From NCBI RefSeq assembly GCF_900636475.1, contig NZ_LR134283.1, positions 806,001-870,000 on the forward strand: a stretch of DNA of 64,000 nt, in the 5' to 3' direction. Positions 6,322-22,771 of the stretch are shown piece after piece; position 1 is the stretch's first letter; each line of letters begins with the position of its first letter. Below the pieces are notes generated by a model that saw only the letters and a program-made list of their open reading frames with translations, did not search any database and was not told the DNA's origin. This stretch comes from Streptococcus anginosus (GTDB taxonomy: Bacteria; Bacillota; Bacilli; Lactobacillales; Streptococcaceae). The position numbers and the translations under genes were made by a program.

Positions 6322-7983
6322 TTAACGCACTTCCATTACAACAGGTAAAATTGCTGGACGACGTTTGGTTTGCTCAAAGAGATATTTCGCAAGATTATCA
6401 CGCACAGCTCCCTTCAGTTCACCCCAGTCAAAATTATCTTTTGCAAGATAATCTTCAACTGTCTTATTGATTAAGTCAGCACTTTCACGCAGAATGTCAC
6501 GACTTTTCTTGACATAAACAAATCCACGCGTATGAACCTTGGCTTTGGAAATAATCTTCTTGTCACGACGGTTCACCGTAATAGCTACGATAAAGATACC
6601 GTCTTCAGACAGAACTTTGCGGTCACGAAGAACGATATTTCCGACATCACCAATCGCATTTCCATCAATCATGACATCACCAGAAGATACCGCACCAGAA
6701 GGTACAAAATCACCCTTTTCATATTCCATAATGCTACCACGTTTTGGAATAAAAATGTTCTCTGGCAACATACCAATTGCCATGGCAGCTTTAGCATGTG
6801 CTGCCAATTCGCGATATTCTCCTTGAATTGGGAACAAGAATTTCGGCTGCAAGAGGTTTAACATCAATTGCAAATCGCGCTCATTTCCATGTCCAGATAC
6901 TCGTAAATCTTGCGTAATTAGTTTGACAACACCACCTGCTTGGTAAATCATGTTTTCTACACGTGCCACCAAGGCTTCTTTTGCGATAGACGGTGTTGTA
7001 ACAATATAAACCAAATCGCCTTCTTTGATTTCTACATAACGGTGACGTCCGATAGACATCTTGCGCAAGCCATTGATTGGCTCACCCATACGCCCAGTTT
7101 CCAAAATAATCAACTCATGATCTTCAAACTTGGACATTTCTTTTGGCTTGATTAGCAAACGTTCGTCCACGAGTGATAATTTCTTCAAGCGAATAGCAGT
7201 ACGAACGATATTTTCAATGTCAAATCCAGTCAATACAACACGACGACCTGTCCTAGCGGCAGCTTCAAAAACTTGTTGAATACGAGAAAGATTGCTTGCA
7301 ACCGCTGCAACTATGACGCGTCCATTCCAATCACCAATCGTATCGGTGATTTCTTTGCCGACTTCACTTTCACTCGCCACTTGAATACTACTATCTGCAT
7401 TTGCAGAATCACTAAGAAGAGCTAGAACACCTTCACGACCAATTTCCGCCAAGCGAGCAAAATCTGTTGCATAAGACTGACTAGCTGTCTGGTCAAACTT
7501 GAAATCACCTGTGTAAACAATATTTCCCTCAGACGTTTTCAAAACAATCCCTAAACTCTCCGGAATGGAATGCGTTGTTTTAAAGAAAGATACAACTGTA
7601 CCTCCAAAATCAATCTCTGTGTCTTCATCAATCACATGAAAATCATTGAACTTTTTGACCGTATCATTTCCTTTGACAAATAACTTAGCCAACTCAATCG
7701 TCAATTCTGAGCCAAACACAGGAACTTTCGTTTCAGCAAGTAAATAAGGCAAGGCACCAATTGCATCTGCATGCCCGTGTGTCAAAAAGACCCCTGCAAT
7801 ACGGTCCTTATTTTCAAACAAATAGTCCATATTTGGAATAACAAAATCCACACCAAGCTGTTCATTTTCTGGATATTTTAATCCGACATCCAGGACGAAA
7901 ATAGATTCATCCACTTCAGCGATGTAAAGATTTTTTCCATTCTCACGTACGCCACCTAAAGCAATCAATTTAATATTGCTCAT
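6322..7983 (-). CDS. rnjB: ribonuclease J2
   Basis: This 553-aa protein has the RNase J layout: metallo-beta-lactamase core, beta-CASP domain, and C-terminal domain. It resembles J2 rather than J1. The metal motif reads THGHADAIGALPY (about residues 68-80), so the usual HxHxDH has lost its last His (Ala at 74); LSDSANAD and the length also match J2. J2 is known as the weakly active partner that pairs with J1 in mRNA decay and rRNA maturation. The gene follows its own promoter (TTGAAA, 17 bases, TATAAT) and precedes estA, as in S. pneumoniae. No rnjA is present in the window. Confidence 0.88.
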   Translation of the reverse strand: MSNIKLIALGGVRENGKNLYIAEVDESIFVLDVGLKYPENEQLGVDFVIPNMDYLFENKDRIAGVFLTHGHADAIGALPYLLAETKVPVFGSELTIELAKLFVKGNDTVKKFNDFHVIDEDTEIDFGGTVVSFFKTTHSIPESLGIVLKTSEGNIVYTGDFKFDQTASQSYATDFARLAEIGREGVLALLSDSANADSSIQVASESEVGKEITDTIGDWNGRVIVAAVASNLSRIQQVFEAAARTGRRVVLTGFDIENIVRTAIRLKKLSLVDERLLIKPKEMSKFEDHELIILETGRMGEPINGLRKMSIGRHRYVEIKEGDLVYIVTTPSIAKEALVARVENMIYQAGGVVKLITQDLRVSGHGNERDLQLMLNLLQPKFLFPIQGEYRELAAHAKAAMAIGMLPENIFIPKRGSIMEYEKGDFVPSGAVSSGDVMIDGNAIGDVGNIVLRDRKVLSEDGIFIVAITVNRRDKKIISKAKVHTRGFVYVKKSRDILRESADLINKTVEDYLAKDNFDWGELKGAVRDNLAKYLFEQTKRRPAILPVVMEVR

Positions 7984-8070
7984 TGATTCTCCTTTTCAAA
8001 TTTTTTTACTAACGGTCCTTGGAATCCCAAGTCGAATTACAGTTTTGCAAATCTTTTGTATATCCAATTT

Positions 8071-8099
8071 ATTATACTACTTTTCATGATTTTTTTCAA
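8071..8099 (-). promoter_or_regulatory. promoter of rnjB
   Basis: On the minus strand TTGAAA (8099-8094) and TATAAT (8076-8071) are separated by exactly 17 bases, about 90 bases upstream of the rnjB ATG. Confidence 0.75.
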
Positions 8100-8113
8100 A
8101 GAACAGAGCATAC

Positions 8114-8154
8114 AAAAAACTCCTAGTTACTGTATACCTACAGAAAGCTAGGAG
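8114..8154 (-). terminator. terminator of the candidate non-coding RNA
   Basis: On the minus strand CTCCTAG pairs with CTAGGAG, with an inner TCTGT/ACAGT pairing, followed by six Ts (8119-8114). It ends transcription arriving from the gene-free stretch and separates that unit from the rnjB promoter. Confidence 0.85.
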
Positions 8155-8560
8155 CCGTCTCTATTTGCTAATAAGTGATAGATAGACTTTCAGAAAGTAA
8201 TTATCTGAAAAGAGATTCTTATGATGATTCCATCGTTATTTTATTAAAGAATGATTTTCTTGTCCACAATATATCAAAAACAAGTTTTTTCATCTAAAAC
8301 AATAGCGGTTTTATACCAAAGCGTGAAAATCATTAAAAAGCTTCTACCGACTGCATCAAATAACATTCTTATTTATTCTTACTTTGCGTTCTTTATACGC
8401 GATGCAATTCTACAAACCACTACATGACATCTTCAGAAATATTTATCAAATACCTCCAATTAAGAAAAACAATTAGCAAATAGAAACTAATACATCATAA
8501 ACGATTTAAAATATGAACGTTCCGACACCCATTGGAATCAGCCCTTTCTTATCTTTCTTT
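8114..8560 (-). ncRNA. candidate structured non-coding RNA with cre-controlled promoter
   Basis: A transcription unit of about 447 bases with no sizeable ORF is bounded by a consensus promoter (TTGCTT, 17 bases, TACAAT) and a strong terminator. Thirteen bases at 8160-8172 are the perfect reverse complement of 8472-8484, so the RNA could close into one large domain. Inside it TGCATC pairs with GATGCA around a GCGT/ACGC hairpin, and CTTTTCAGA pairs with TCTGAAAG. A nine-codon frame (MGVGTFIF) after an AGAAAGGG-like site is the only ORF with a plausible ribosome site. It lacks the hallmarks of RNase P RNA or tmRNA. Function unknown. Confidence 0.6.
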
Positions 8561-8561
8561 A

Positions 8562-8604
8562 ATTATATTGTACACCTTCTTTTTTAAAAAAGCAAGCGTT
8601 TACA
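8562..8604 (-). promoter_or_regulatory. promoter with overlapping cre (CcpA) site
   Basis: The -35 TTGCTT is at 8595-8590 and the -10 TACAAT at 8572-8567, with 17-base spacing and an overlapping alternative TATAAT at 8567-8562. TGTAAACGCTTGCT (8604-8591) matches the consensus cre TGWAARCGYTWNCW at every position and covers the -35, which predicts CcpA repression. Confidence 0.72.
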
Positions 8605-8680
8605 TTCATTTTTTTTAAATATTTTTTACAAATGAAAAGAGGCAGAATTAACCATTCAAACCTCTTCTCAATGTAGATTT

Positions 8681-9967
8681 TTATGCCCGTACTGTGACAC
8701 TTGTGCCGTCTTCTTTATAAAGATTTATCAAACCTTCTTTACGACTACGTACCATATCACCTGGATAAACTGGATGTGGCAAGGAAATCGTCAACAGTTC
8801 CATCGGATTAGGAGCCCGATCAATTTTATTTCCATCTGAATCGTGTAAATCTGTAATGACTGCATCAAAATGACGGAAACCAGGACCATAAAATTCAACT
8901 GGGTCGCCCTCATTAATGACATTTCGTTGCCGAATAGTCGCTGTTTGCGTATCAGGGTCATAAGCCACCACTTCTGCCACAAATTTATATTGCGGAATTT
9001 TGCGGCGTGCTCCAAAAAGCTGCTCATTTTCAGTCGGTGTATGATAATAAAATCCTGTCGCCAACTCACGTTGCGCAACTTTCCACATTTCATCTACTAA
9101 ATCTTGCTTGATTGCTTCAAACTTTTCAGGACTTTCAAGATAAGCATCTACTGCCGCCTTGTAACAATTTGAAACAGTAGATACATAGTGAATAGACTTC
9201 ATGCGCCCTTCAATTTTCAAGCTGTCCACCCCATTTTCAATCATATCTGGAATGTGATCAATCATGGACATATCCACAGCCGACATAGAAAATTCTTCTG
9301 GAATTTCGCCTTTTAAGCTCTTGCGCTCTTGTCCAAAAGGCATATCGTAGAGATCATATTTCCAACGACAAGATTGAGAGCAGCCCCCACGATTGGCATC
9401 CCGCATGCTCATATGATTGGACAAAGTACAACGTCCTGAGTAGGAAATACACATAGCGCCGTGAACAAAGGCTTCAATCTCAACATCGGTATGTTTGCGG
9501 ATTTCTGCCAATTCTTCCATGGAAACTTCGCGCGCCAAAACGACACGTGTCAACCCCAAATCTTTCCAAAATTCCAATGTTTCATAGTTTGTCGCGCTAG
9601 CTTGTGTTGACAAGTGTACTTCCAAACCTGGCGCTTCTGTACAAGCAATGGCAATCAAAGCTGGGTCAGATACGATAACAGCAGAAATACCAATATCCCG
9701 CAAAGTGCGGAACCATTCTCCAGCTCCTTCTTCATTGCCTTCGTGGGTCACCATATTTGCAGCCACATAGACTTTAGCGCCGTGTTCACGAGCAAATTGA
9801 ACGCCCTCTTCCATTTCTTCAAATGTAAAATTTCCAGCACGACTGCGCAAACCATAGGCTTGTCCACCAATATAAACAGCATCCGCTCCATAGCGAATGG
9901 CGACTTTTAATTTTTCCAACGTTCCAGCAGGCGCCAGAACCTCTGGCCTTTTCAAAGTTTTTGTCAT
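8681..9967 (-). CDS. trhP2: U32 family tRNA hydroxylation protein (TrhP2/YrrO type)
   Basis: The 428-aa protein belongs to peptidase family U32, whose members YrrO (B. subtilis) and TrhP (E. coli) are now known to help form 5-hydroxyuridine at tRNA position 34 using prephenate. It starts with the barrel-type RPEVLAPAGTLEKLK and carries the cysteine cluster typical of this group (CISYSGRC, then GGCSQSC, about residues 173-202), which is expected to bind an iron-sulfur cluster. The second U32 gene lies just upstream on the same strand (about 130 bases), so both probably form one complex, as YrrN/YrrO do. Older annotations call it a collagenase-like protease. Confidence 0.88.
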   Translation of the reverse strand: MTKTLKRPEVLAPAGTLEKLKVAIRYGADAVYIGGQAYGLRSRAGNFTFEEMEEGVQFAREHGAKVYVAANMVTHEGNEEGAGEWFRTLRDIGISAVIVSDPALIAIACTEAPGLEVHLSTQASATNYETLEFWKDLGLTRVVLAREVSMEELAEIRKHTDVEIEAFVHGAMCISYSGRCTLSNHMSMRDANRGGCSQSCRWKYDLYDMPFGQERKSLKGEIPEEFSMSAVDMSMIDHIPDMIENGVDSLKIEGRMKSIHYVSTVSNCYKAAVDAYLESPEKFEAIKQDLVDEMWKVAQRELATGFYYHTPTENEQLFGARRKIPQYKFVAEVVAYDPDTQTATIRQRNVINEGDPVEFYGPGFRHFDAVITDLHDSDGNKIDRAPNPMELLTISLPHPVYPGDMVRSRKEGLINLYKEDGTSVTVRA

Positions 9968-21283: not shown

Positions 21284-22771
21284 ATGTCTTCAAAAGTGAT
21301 TATTACAATTTTTGGTGCCAGTGGAGATTTGGCAAAAAGAAAACTCTATCCTTCTCTTTTTAGATTGTATAAATCTGGCAATCTGTCTAAGCATTTTGCC
21401 GTTATCGGTACAGCTCGCAGGCCTTGGAGCAAGGAATATTTTGAATCTGTCGTGGTCGAGTCTATCACAGATCTCGCTGATAGCCCTGAGCAAGCGCAAG
21501 AATTTGCTAGCCATTTCTATTATCAAAGTCATGACGTCCAAGATACTGAACATTATATCGAATTAAGGAAGCTACAAAACAGCCTTGATGAGCAATATCA
21601 AGCAGAACATAACAAACTGTTCTTCCTGTCTATGGCTCCTCAGTTTTTTGGTACGATTGCTAAACACCTCAAATCCGAGCAAATTGTAGACGGGAAAGGG
21701 TTCGAACGCTTAATTGTAGAAAAACCTTTCGGCACAGACCTTGCCTCTGCTAGCAAACTGAACGACGATTTGTTGGCAACATTTGACGAAGAACAGATTT
21801 TCCGGATTGACCATTATCTCGGCAAAGAAATGATTCAAAGTATTTTTGCCATTCGCTTTGCCAATCTTCTTTTTGAAAATGTCTGGAATCGTGATTATAT
21901 TGACAATGTACAGATTACCTTTGCTGAAAAGTTAGGTGTGGAAGAACGTGGTGGTTATTACGACCATTCAGGTGCACTGCGCGATATGGTGCAAAATCAC
22001 ACACTTCAACTCCTGTCTTTGCTTGCTATGGACAAACCCAAAACTTTTACCAAAGATGATATTCGTGCTGAAAAGATTAAGGTTTTCAAACACTTACACA
22101 AGCCGACCGATAATGATTTGAAAAAGCTCTTCATTCGTGGTCAATACACTTCTGGCAAAGTGGACGGGAAAAAGTACATTTCCTATCGTAGTGAACCAAA
22201 TGTTGCCCCAGAATCTACCACAGAAACCTTTGCTTCTGGTGCATTCTTTGTAGATAGTGACCGATTTCGCGGGGTGCCATTTTTCTTCCGTACTGGAAAA
22301 CGTCTCACTGCCAAGGGAACCCATGTCAACATTGTCTTCAAGCAAATGGAATCCATTTTCGGCTCCTCGCTTCAACCAAATGTGCTGACGATTTACATTC
22401 AGCCAACTGAAGGATTTTCTCTTAGCATGAACGGCAAAGAGGTGGGCGAGCAATTTAACTTAGCTCCATTGACACTTGATTATCGTACAGATGCAACAGC
22501 TTCTGGTGCGTCACCAGAACCTTATGAGAAGCTCATCTACGATGTGCTAAACAATGACTCAACCAATTTTAGCCACTGGGACGAAGTTCGCTCTAGTTGG
22601 GAATTGATTGACCGTATTGAAGCCTTATGGGCAAATAAAGAAGTTCCACTTCATCATTACAAATCAGGTACTATGGGACCCGAAGCCAGCTTTGAGCTCC
22701 TTAACCAATTTGAAGCTGATTGGAATTGGCGTCCAGACGAAGCCTATCGCAAAGAAGGACGATTGGGGTAA
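21284..22771 (+). CDS. zwf: glucose-6-phosphate 1-dehydrogenase
   Basis: Zwf oxidises glucose-6-phosphate to 6-phosphogluconolactone with NADP, the first step of the oxidative pentose phosphate route. The sequence has the nucleotide-binding FGASGDLAKRK (about residues 9-19) and the active-site RIDHYLGKE (about 173-181). The 495-aa length is normal. The frame is open from a GTG at 21275; MSSKVIITIFGASGD at 21284 fits family starts. The ribosome site is weak (AAATGGG). It converges on ftsY with a shared terminator. Confidence 0.96.
   Translation: MSSKVIITIFGASGDLAKRKLYPSLFRLYKSGNLSKHFAVIGTARRPWSKEYFESVVVESITDLADSPEQAQEFASHFYYQSHDVQDTEHYIELRKLQNSLDEQYQAEHNKLFFLSMAPQFFGTIAKHLKSEQIVDGKGFERLIVEKPFGTDLASASKLNDDLLATFDEEQIFRIDHYLGKEMIQSIFAIRFANLLFENVWNRDYIDNVQITFAEKLGVEERGGYYDHSGALRDMVQNHTLQLLSLLAMDKPKTFTKDDIRAEKIKVFKHLHKPTDNDLKKLFIRGQYTSGKVDGKKYISYRSEPNVAPESTTETFASGAFFVDSDRFRGVPFFFRTGKRLTAKGTHVNIVFKQMESIFGSSLQPNVLTIYIQPTEGFSLSMNGKEVGEQFNLAPLTLDYRTDATASGASPEPYEKLIYDVLNNDSTNFSHWDEVRSSWELIDRIEALWANKEVPLHHYKSGTMGPEASFELLNQFEADWNWRPDEAYRKEGRLG

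Follow-up and report, generated by a model that had tools for sequence, protein, structure and literature searches.

Between a gene that we take to encode a U32-type peptidase and rnjB in Streptococcus anginosus lies a stretch of DNA that carries the signals of a transcription unit and no evident gene. What might such a unit encode? We examined it within a 64,000-nt stretch of the S. anginosus genome (hereafter, the window) and across related sequences in Streptococcus. We lean towards the reading that it belongs to a stand-alone, CcpA-repressed and stably folded Streptococcus RNA family, acting in trans as a carbon-starvation riboregulator with its 5′ stretch as the preferred contact.

A candidate RNA gene with a cre-bearing promoter

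The gene names used below, rnjB (RNase J2) and those of the neighbors (U32 peptidase, alcohol dehydrogenase, pheS, csbD and ABC-ATPase), are presumptive assignments by protein family. The layout of the unit and its flanks in the window is as follows:

8681-9967, U32-peptidase-like gene on the other flank of the RNA gene
8605-8114, minus strand, predicted RNA gene unit, comprising a promoter with a cre over its −35, the body and a strong terminator
8589..8605, minus strand, cre (putative CcpA site) ATGTAAACGCTTGCTTT, overlapping the −35, by match to WTGNAANCGNWNNCWWW
8567..8595, minus strand, promoter read from the sequence, with −35 TTGCTT at 8595-8590, a 17-bp spacer and −10 TACAAT at 8572-8567
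8120..8560, minus strand, predicted transcript body of about 440-450 nt, its start placed from the −10
8506..8532, minus strand, possible 8-codon ORF MGVGTFIF after an SD-like AAAGGG, a candidate from sequence
8114..8154, minus strand, intrinsic terminator by sequence and fold, with a stem of 8154-8148 and 8126-8120 followed by six T
8099-8071, minus strand, promoter-like site of rnjB, TTGAAA-17-TATAAT, found by scan directly after the RNA terminator
6322-7983, minus strand, rnjB (ORF), the next gene downstream of the RNA

The first-pass annotation had described a consensus-type promoter, a cre over its −35 and a strong terminator, and all three can be read on the minus strand, with the promoter coordinates holding on rechecking. 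Taken alone, the cre is weak evidence: the consensus used for the scan, WTGNAANCGNWNNCWWW, occurs once in 64 kb against 0.73 occurrences expected. A simple promoter and terminator scan of the window omits both the RNA promoter, whose −35 agrees with TTGACA at 3 of 6 positions, and the RNA terminator, the latter, we take it, because its long loop lies beyond the limit of the scan. The transcribed strand contains no ORF above 30 aa, in agreement with the earlier view that the unit holds no real gene. The 451-nt strand from 8560 to 8110 folds at −106 kcal/mol, compared with −90.0 ± 4.4 kcal/mol in shuffled sequences (z −3.65, with 0/100 as low), a feature that does stand out by itself. The 13-base inverted repeat reported previously (8160-8172 with 8472-8484) is exact, and no other perfect inverted repeat in the unit is as long; 13 bases were reached by 4/150 dinucleotide shuffles, making the repeat alone mildly unusual.

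Comparison with relatives is what lifts the unit above chance, because the promoter/cre layout, the helices and the terminator recur in 52 distinct related sequences. This set counts distinct sequences, not one per genome, and was collected by patterns requiring a partial cre core and the terminator. Absent from it for reasons of pattern are G017, which has a one-base cre variant, and the incomplete loci L099 and L101; G074, G076 and G183 are not included by way of the model-hit loci, and L136 and L137 share one sequence. The core GNAAWCGCTTGC is invariant in 52/52 sequences, and the −35 inside it always stands 17 bp from TATAAT, TATACT, TACAAT or TACACT (again 52/52). Much of the spacer between −35 and −10 varies freely while the cre and −35 remain invariant, which points to selection on the cre/−35. 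A terminator is present at the equivalent position in the other sequence types too.

A recount that did not demand a cre gave a similar picture: CGCTTGC occurs at most 420 bases upstream in 138 of 140 fetched loci holding the P4/pseudoknot core (see below), many of which share genomes, and the two loci lacking it, L099 and L101, have just 99 and 158 upstream bases present. We infer that the unit is transcribed and, since the cre core stands upstream in 138/140 loci and inside the −35 in the 52 sequences, that its promoter is repressed by CcpA.

Relatives in Streptococcus and a covarying fold

A DNA search of 284 genomes of the genus returned matches in 26, including near-identical full-length copies (94-100%) in four genomes besides the window's own. 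In S. gordonii DD07 (G097), it gave two shorter neighboring matches to the window RNA, and with the copy from this genome as query, the 3′ part resembled loci in many further genomes. A core-pattern search found 18 Streptococcus loci, distributed over S. sanguinis (8), S. cristatus (6), S. sinensis, S. gordonii DD07, Streptococcus sp. Marseille-P6264 and a Streptococcus MAG, along with one match in Mesonia (L104) that we take to be chance. S. sanguinis SK1 (NCTC 7863, L096) carries a family member.

Twelve promoter-type matches (L003, L005, L015, L016, L018, L025, L032, L033, L048, L052, L054 and L067) were rejected as unrelated because their sequences run into protein genes or other promoters. 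Among the other short matches, some, such as L019 and L020, proved to be family members.

Two covariance models extended the search. R1, for which 11 sequences of the sanguinis, cristatus, sinensis and MAG types were used, matched 52/284 genomes at E ≤ 0.1 and brought in types F and G, neither of which had gone into it. R2 drew on types C to G, leaving out the anginosus and gordonii types; scanned at E ≤ 0.05, it matched 51/284. Of these genomes, two matched by R1 (G168 and G208) were set aside as chance upon inspection of the sequence and one matched by R2 (G166) on length and score only, as was a further R2 hit, G385 (74-75 nt for these two R2 hits). With these removed, the two models agree on the same 50 genomes; adding five of the window's type places homologs in 55/284 Streptococcus genomes, in seven sequence types. 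When R2 was run on 246 genomes drawn from the order, it matched 11 genomes of Streptococcus and gave one weak 74-nt match elsewhere. From these sequences, the family looks confined to Streptococcus, although copies as far diverged as that of the window would escape R2 in a scan of this kind. No match to the RNA appeared in plasmid or phage collections, which may omit near records.

The elements of the proposed fold, in window coordinates, are:

8472..8487, minus strand, P1 5′ arm (closing helix), by comparative pairing
8157..8172, minus strand, P1 3′ arm, by comparative pairing
8414..8423, minus strand, P2 5′ arm, by alignment and R2 placement
8302..8311, minus strand, P2 3′ arm, by alignment and R2 placement
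8400..8408, minus strand, P3 5′ arm (the GCATC helix of the first-pass annotation), by comparative fold
8350..8358, minus strand, P3 3′ arm, by comparative fold
8318..8344, minus strand, P4 hairpin, pairing 8344-8340 with 8322-8318, with the pseudoknot 5′ strand 8333-8325 in its loop, by covariation
8251..8259, minus strand, pseudoknot 3′ strand GAAAATCAT, partner of 8333-8325, by compensatory changes across sequence types
8187..8212, minus strand, P5 hairpin CTTTTCAGA/TCTGAAAG, pairing 8212-8204 with 8194-8187, by sequence and MFE fold only

Of the two nested helices proposed earlier, TGCATC/GATGCA corresponds to P3 of this fold, and CTTTTCAGA/TCTGAAAG instead forms a local hairpin, P5, before the P1 3′ arm. 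The pseudoknot is a feature beyond that earlier reading; it joins the P4 loop (ATGATTTTC in the window) to the downstream GAAAATCAT.

In a search of 45 sources (155 kb), R2 hits the window at 8422-8238 on the minus strand over the full model length, with 24.2 bits and E 0.023; the next-best match in the window scores 16.4 bits. The same search also recovered three sister copies and the G097 copy, at E 0.003-0.014. The R2 alignment puts the P2 arms, P4 and the pseudoknot strands of the window into the correct columns, and the P1, P2, P4 and pseudoknot pairs are all present in the window RNA. In the stricter genome-wide scans of the 284 genomes, neither R1 nor R2 reported the window type. The G097 copy forms a bridge, with DNA similarity to the window type and weak R1 and R2 similarity to the rest (E 0.013 and 0.041). 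By its R2 match and its predicted pairs, the window RNA qualifies as a member of the streptococcal family, though R2 recovers it weakly.

The closing helix is maintained across the family. Both P1 arms were found in 51/52 sequences (L140 was dropped, its arm lying outside the pattern), and 81/81 cells are paired over 9 distinct arm pairs, a value equaled by 3/2000 shuffles; the arms are the best-pairing pattern matches, a choice that favors pairing. The arms of the 9-bp core read TTTGCTAAT/ATTAGCAAA in the window, TTTACTGAT/ATCAGTAAA in G097, TTTGTTGGT/ACCAGCGAA in the sanguinis type and TTCGCTGAC/GTCAGTGAA in type F. The covariation test suggested earlier for the 13-bp helix thus comes out in its favor, in that the letters have changed in six other sequence types and the 9-bp core remains fully paired.

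The inner elements (P2, P3, P4 and the pseudoknot) were scored in two alignments. In A3, with 15 sequences, 98.2% of cells are paired and 12 pairs have changed on both sides; covariation is 0.392, compared with 0.268 ± 0.016 in shuffles (0/500 as high) and at most 0.137 when the partners are slid by 1-3 columns. In A4, with 32 distinct rows that include the window type, 97.9% of cells are paired, 15 pairs are two-sided, and covariation is 0.343 compared with 0.224 ± 0.009 in shuffles (0/500 as high), counts that lean towards the R2 structure because the alignment was fitted to it. One of five covariation measures, that of further pair types, did not rise above shuffles (245/500 in A3 and 52/500 in A4).

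The individual elements contribute unevenly. P3 accounts for 17 unpaired cells in A4, where it goes unscored for the window type, whose enlarged P3 loop places P3 in alignment gaps. P4 is invariant in A3, hence uninformative there; its first pair is G-C, G-U or A-U in A4. For the pseudoknot in A4, the outer counted pair is U-A in 23/32 rows and A-U in 9/32, the third pair is G-C, G-U or A-U, and the remaining six pairs never vary. Judged from these alignments, the closing helix, the inner helices and the pseudoknot are maintained by compensatory changes.

In keeping with the earlier remark that the RNA matches no known family, Rfam 15 yielded no match in the window, nor in 7990-8680 at E up to 10. 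For seven homolog loci searched at E up to 1, nothing was found in the RNA body; L034 gave a T-box match and a weak sau-5971 match, both below the gathering score and outside the body. These loci probably specify a real RNA that is absent from the main RNA catalog.

A possible role in carbon starvation

In the mechanism that we favor, the RNA gene would be silenced by CcpA sitting on the cre in the −35 while glucose-type sugars are plentiful, and the release of CcpA when sugars are exhausted would switch the gene on. The transcript would form one closed domain, with P1 joining its ends, P2 and P3 inside, and the P4 loop in a pseudoknot with the downstream strand, and would end at its own terminator. 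It would then act in trans as a carbon-starvation riboregulator. For the last step we can offer a guess by analogy with RosA and RsaI, in which the G-containing 5′ stretch would pair with C-rich RNAs; the folded body may confer long life on the RNA or hold a protein. This purine-rich stretch lies outside the closed domain, has runs of GG to GGGG, and can be read in all seven sequence types. In the window it is predicted to form a hairpin of its own (−14.2 kcal/mol, z −3.04, with 1/200 shuffles as low) and may therefore not be free to pair, which lowers our confidence in action by pairing.

Known RNAs offer precedents for parts of this logic. RsaI (RsaOG) of S. aureus is CcpA-repressed during glucose abundance and acts by pairing (PMC9266662). 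Like the RNA described here, it stands alone under CcpA repression (predicted in our case), a likeness in logic. RsaI is 111 nt long, whereas the streptococcal RNA is ~450 nt, has a long helix closing it, and turned up in Streptococcus alone. RosA of B. subtilis is a CcpA-repressed sponge, and both RosA and RsaI are said to have G-rich regions that bind C-rich sRNAs (PMC8216469). RosA, too, is a stand-alone RNA comparable in logic, with the same proviso on CcpA control; the CcpA site predicted for it spans −1 to +12, whereas the cre here lies over the −35 (PMC8216469). A 2020 study of CcpA in group A Streptococcus states that direct evidence for an action of sRNAs on metabolic pathways is lacking in that organism, and points to the CcpA-regulated sRNAs of S. 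aureus (PMC8359418).

Several streptococcal RNAs also invite comparison. Putative intergenic RNAs of S. mutans that respond to CcpA or to sugar, such as PredSmallRNA-204 and -205, resemble it by description (PMC3610829). The CiaR-dependent csRNAs, six of which occur in S. sanguinis SK36, are likewise free-standing; they measure 89-100 nt, some 200 nt, and are under CiaRH, in contrast to the ~450 nt and the cre of the present RNA (PMC8186281). The YjbJ motif WRC-39-1 is another structured RNA restricted to Streptococcus and tied to a csbD-family gene, but consists of two hairpins ~30 nt upstream of the yjbJ SD and start codon (PMC11109978); our RNA is ~450 nt long with its own promoter, and in some loci has a csbD-like gene upstream of it. 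The sanguinis-hairpin, another Streptococcus RNA candidate, is tabulated without an Rfam number and may or may not overlap part of the RNA here (PMC2864571).

We did not find the RNA in the literature searched, which included excerpts of PMC12323649, PMC7160235 and PMC8632094. A family member may already figure as a transcript among the 87 putative sRNAs of S. parasanguinis FW213 (PMC3329508) or the 243 predicted sRNA regions of S. mutans (PMC3610829).

The main rival to the favored pairing mechanism is a structured RNA that acts by its shape under sugar shortage, as an RNA-protein particle, a protein decoy or a catalytic or ligand-binding RNA, since the conserved pseudoknotted body exceeds the needs of most pairing RNAs. 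The architecture of closing helix, P2, P3 and pseudoknotted P4 is kept while the helix sequences drift, and five sequence types show hardly any variation in the P3 loop CUGCUUA or in the P4/pseudoknot core. The predicted folding of the 5′ stretch in the window, the alternative contact, also fits such a role. Against it, neither a protein partner nor a ligand-linked gene suggests itself, and the CUGCUUA loop is absent from the anginosus-type sequences, the window's included, and from G097; as two types lack it, we do not count this loop as family-defining. We regard action by shape as possible rather than probable.

Gene order around the RNA and rnjB

The RNA was noted at the outset for lying beside the gene for RNase J2, as we take rnjB to be. 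The adjacency is real in the window, and the link itself probably reflects inherited gene order. We compared the positions of RNA and rnjB in 24 chosen genomes of the 55 that bear the RNA. The distance is within about 1.1 kb in 15, 2-3 kb in 3, 8-9 kb in 2, 23 kb in 2 and 78 kb in 1, with the two on separate contigs in the remaining genome. They share a strand in 23/23 comparable genomes, and the RNA is upstream in 22/23; the exception is G097, where rnjB is 78 kb off on the RNA's other side. In G215 (L178), an ABC-ATPase gene, the RNA and rnjB are consecutive. Among 70 chosen genomes without a model hit, 40 fetched regions upstream of rnjB contained no RNA by core pattern or R2, a negative limited by the poor sensitivity of R2 to copies diverged as far as the window's; a similar ABC-ATPase gene stands directly before rnjB in 12 of these 40 RNA-less regions, and BLAST revealed no similar RNA in the gap of about 640 nt in L190. 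The simplest history would be that the RNA was gained between the ABC-ATPase gene and rnjB, followed by insertions and moves.

Such an arrangement could also be expected of a cis-acting leader, in which an aptamer or attenuator ending in a terminator controls read-through into the downstream gene, rnjB in the window. Promoter, structured RNA, terminator and rnjB stand in series on one strand there; the shared strand, the upstream position and the short distance in most of the compared genomes would follow equally from a cis role, as would the placement of the next ORF on the RNA's strand in 21/23 loci that show one. However, rnjB is equipped with a promoter-like site and a leader of its own, and lies far off on the wrong side in G097. 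Just 6/24 loci have rnjB as the first ORF of at least 90 aa behind the RNA; this ORF is alcohol-dehydrogenase-like in 5, of MGLSYAQ type in 5, pheS-like in 1 and another same-strand ORF in 4, while 2 loci have an opposite-strand ORF (convergent in the MAG type, and possibly spurious in L109) and 1 has none. A leader of rnjB would have the same gene downstream in all homologs, which these do not. The differing genes speak against a leader and fit a role in trans, and we consider cis control improbable. Nor does rnjB stand out as a pairing partner of the RNA, ranking 11th of the 51 window ORFs of at least 150 aa.

Finally, we give very little weight to the proposal of a short-peptide messenger or dual-function RNA, in which SD-like purines and GATNCCAATG followed by a 7-9 codon ORF (MPYRVKI-, MPYRFIH- or MGVGTFIF-type; 30/52 sequences) would yield the product and the structured RNA a stabilizing 3′ part, since the peptide sequence changes freely and the ORF is missing, with the structure kept, in the other 22, which are all of the sanguinis, cristatus/sinensis and MAG types. 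The ORF may be real, yet it is unlikely to be the main purpose of a fold that persists in types without it.

The neighborhood offered further observations. The rnjB leader, at 8010-8048 on the minus strand, carries UUCGACUUG...CAAGGACCGUUA. The first of these occurs in 97/229 fetched loci (many overlapping, and not all with a leader), including rnjB upstream regions in RNA-less streptococci, and is possibly a conserved rnjB control site; a short hairpin in this leader folds no better than shuffles. In loci of types F and G (L160, L165, L168, L179 and L184), the interval from the RNA to rnjB contains a small gene that starts with MGLSYAQEYSCRDHFRQRAFERFGVDD or similar.

Contig C1 of G227 contains two nearly identical RNA copies of sanguinis type, at 21869-22041 and 2354489-2354661 (L078 and L064), each with the same csbD-like gene upstream; on a circular contig, ~26 kb would separate them, and they represent either a duplication or an assembly overlap. 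In S. gordonii DD07 (L034/L035), ~85 extra bases separate the promoter from the conserved 5′ end, and the copy is followed by the sub-threshold T-box match and a pheS-like gene.

The favored reading remains that of a trans-acting riboregulator. More tentatively, and at less than even likelihood, the family could form a new class of bacterial RNA, large and pseudoknotted, that acts through its three-dimensional body when de-repressed from CcpA, was gained between an ABC-transporter gene and rnjB, and perhaps ties sugar state to RNA decay. Mouth streptococci, S. sanguinis SK1 among them, carry an RNA family with a cre-bearing promoter and a strongly supported fold. Action via that fold, if true, would make it a large bacterial RNA of a new kind.
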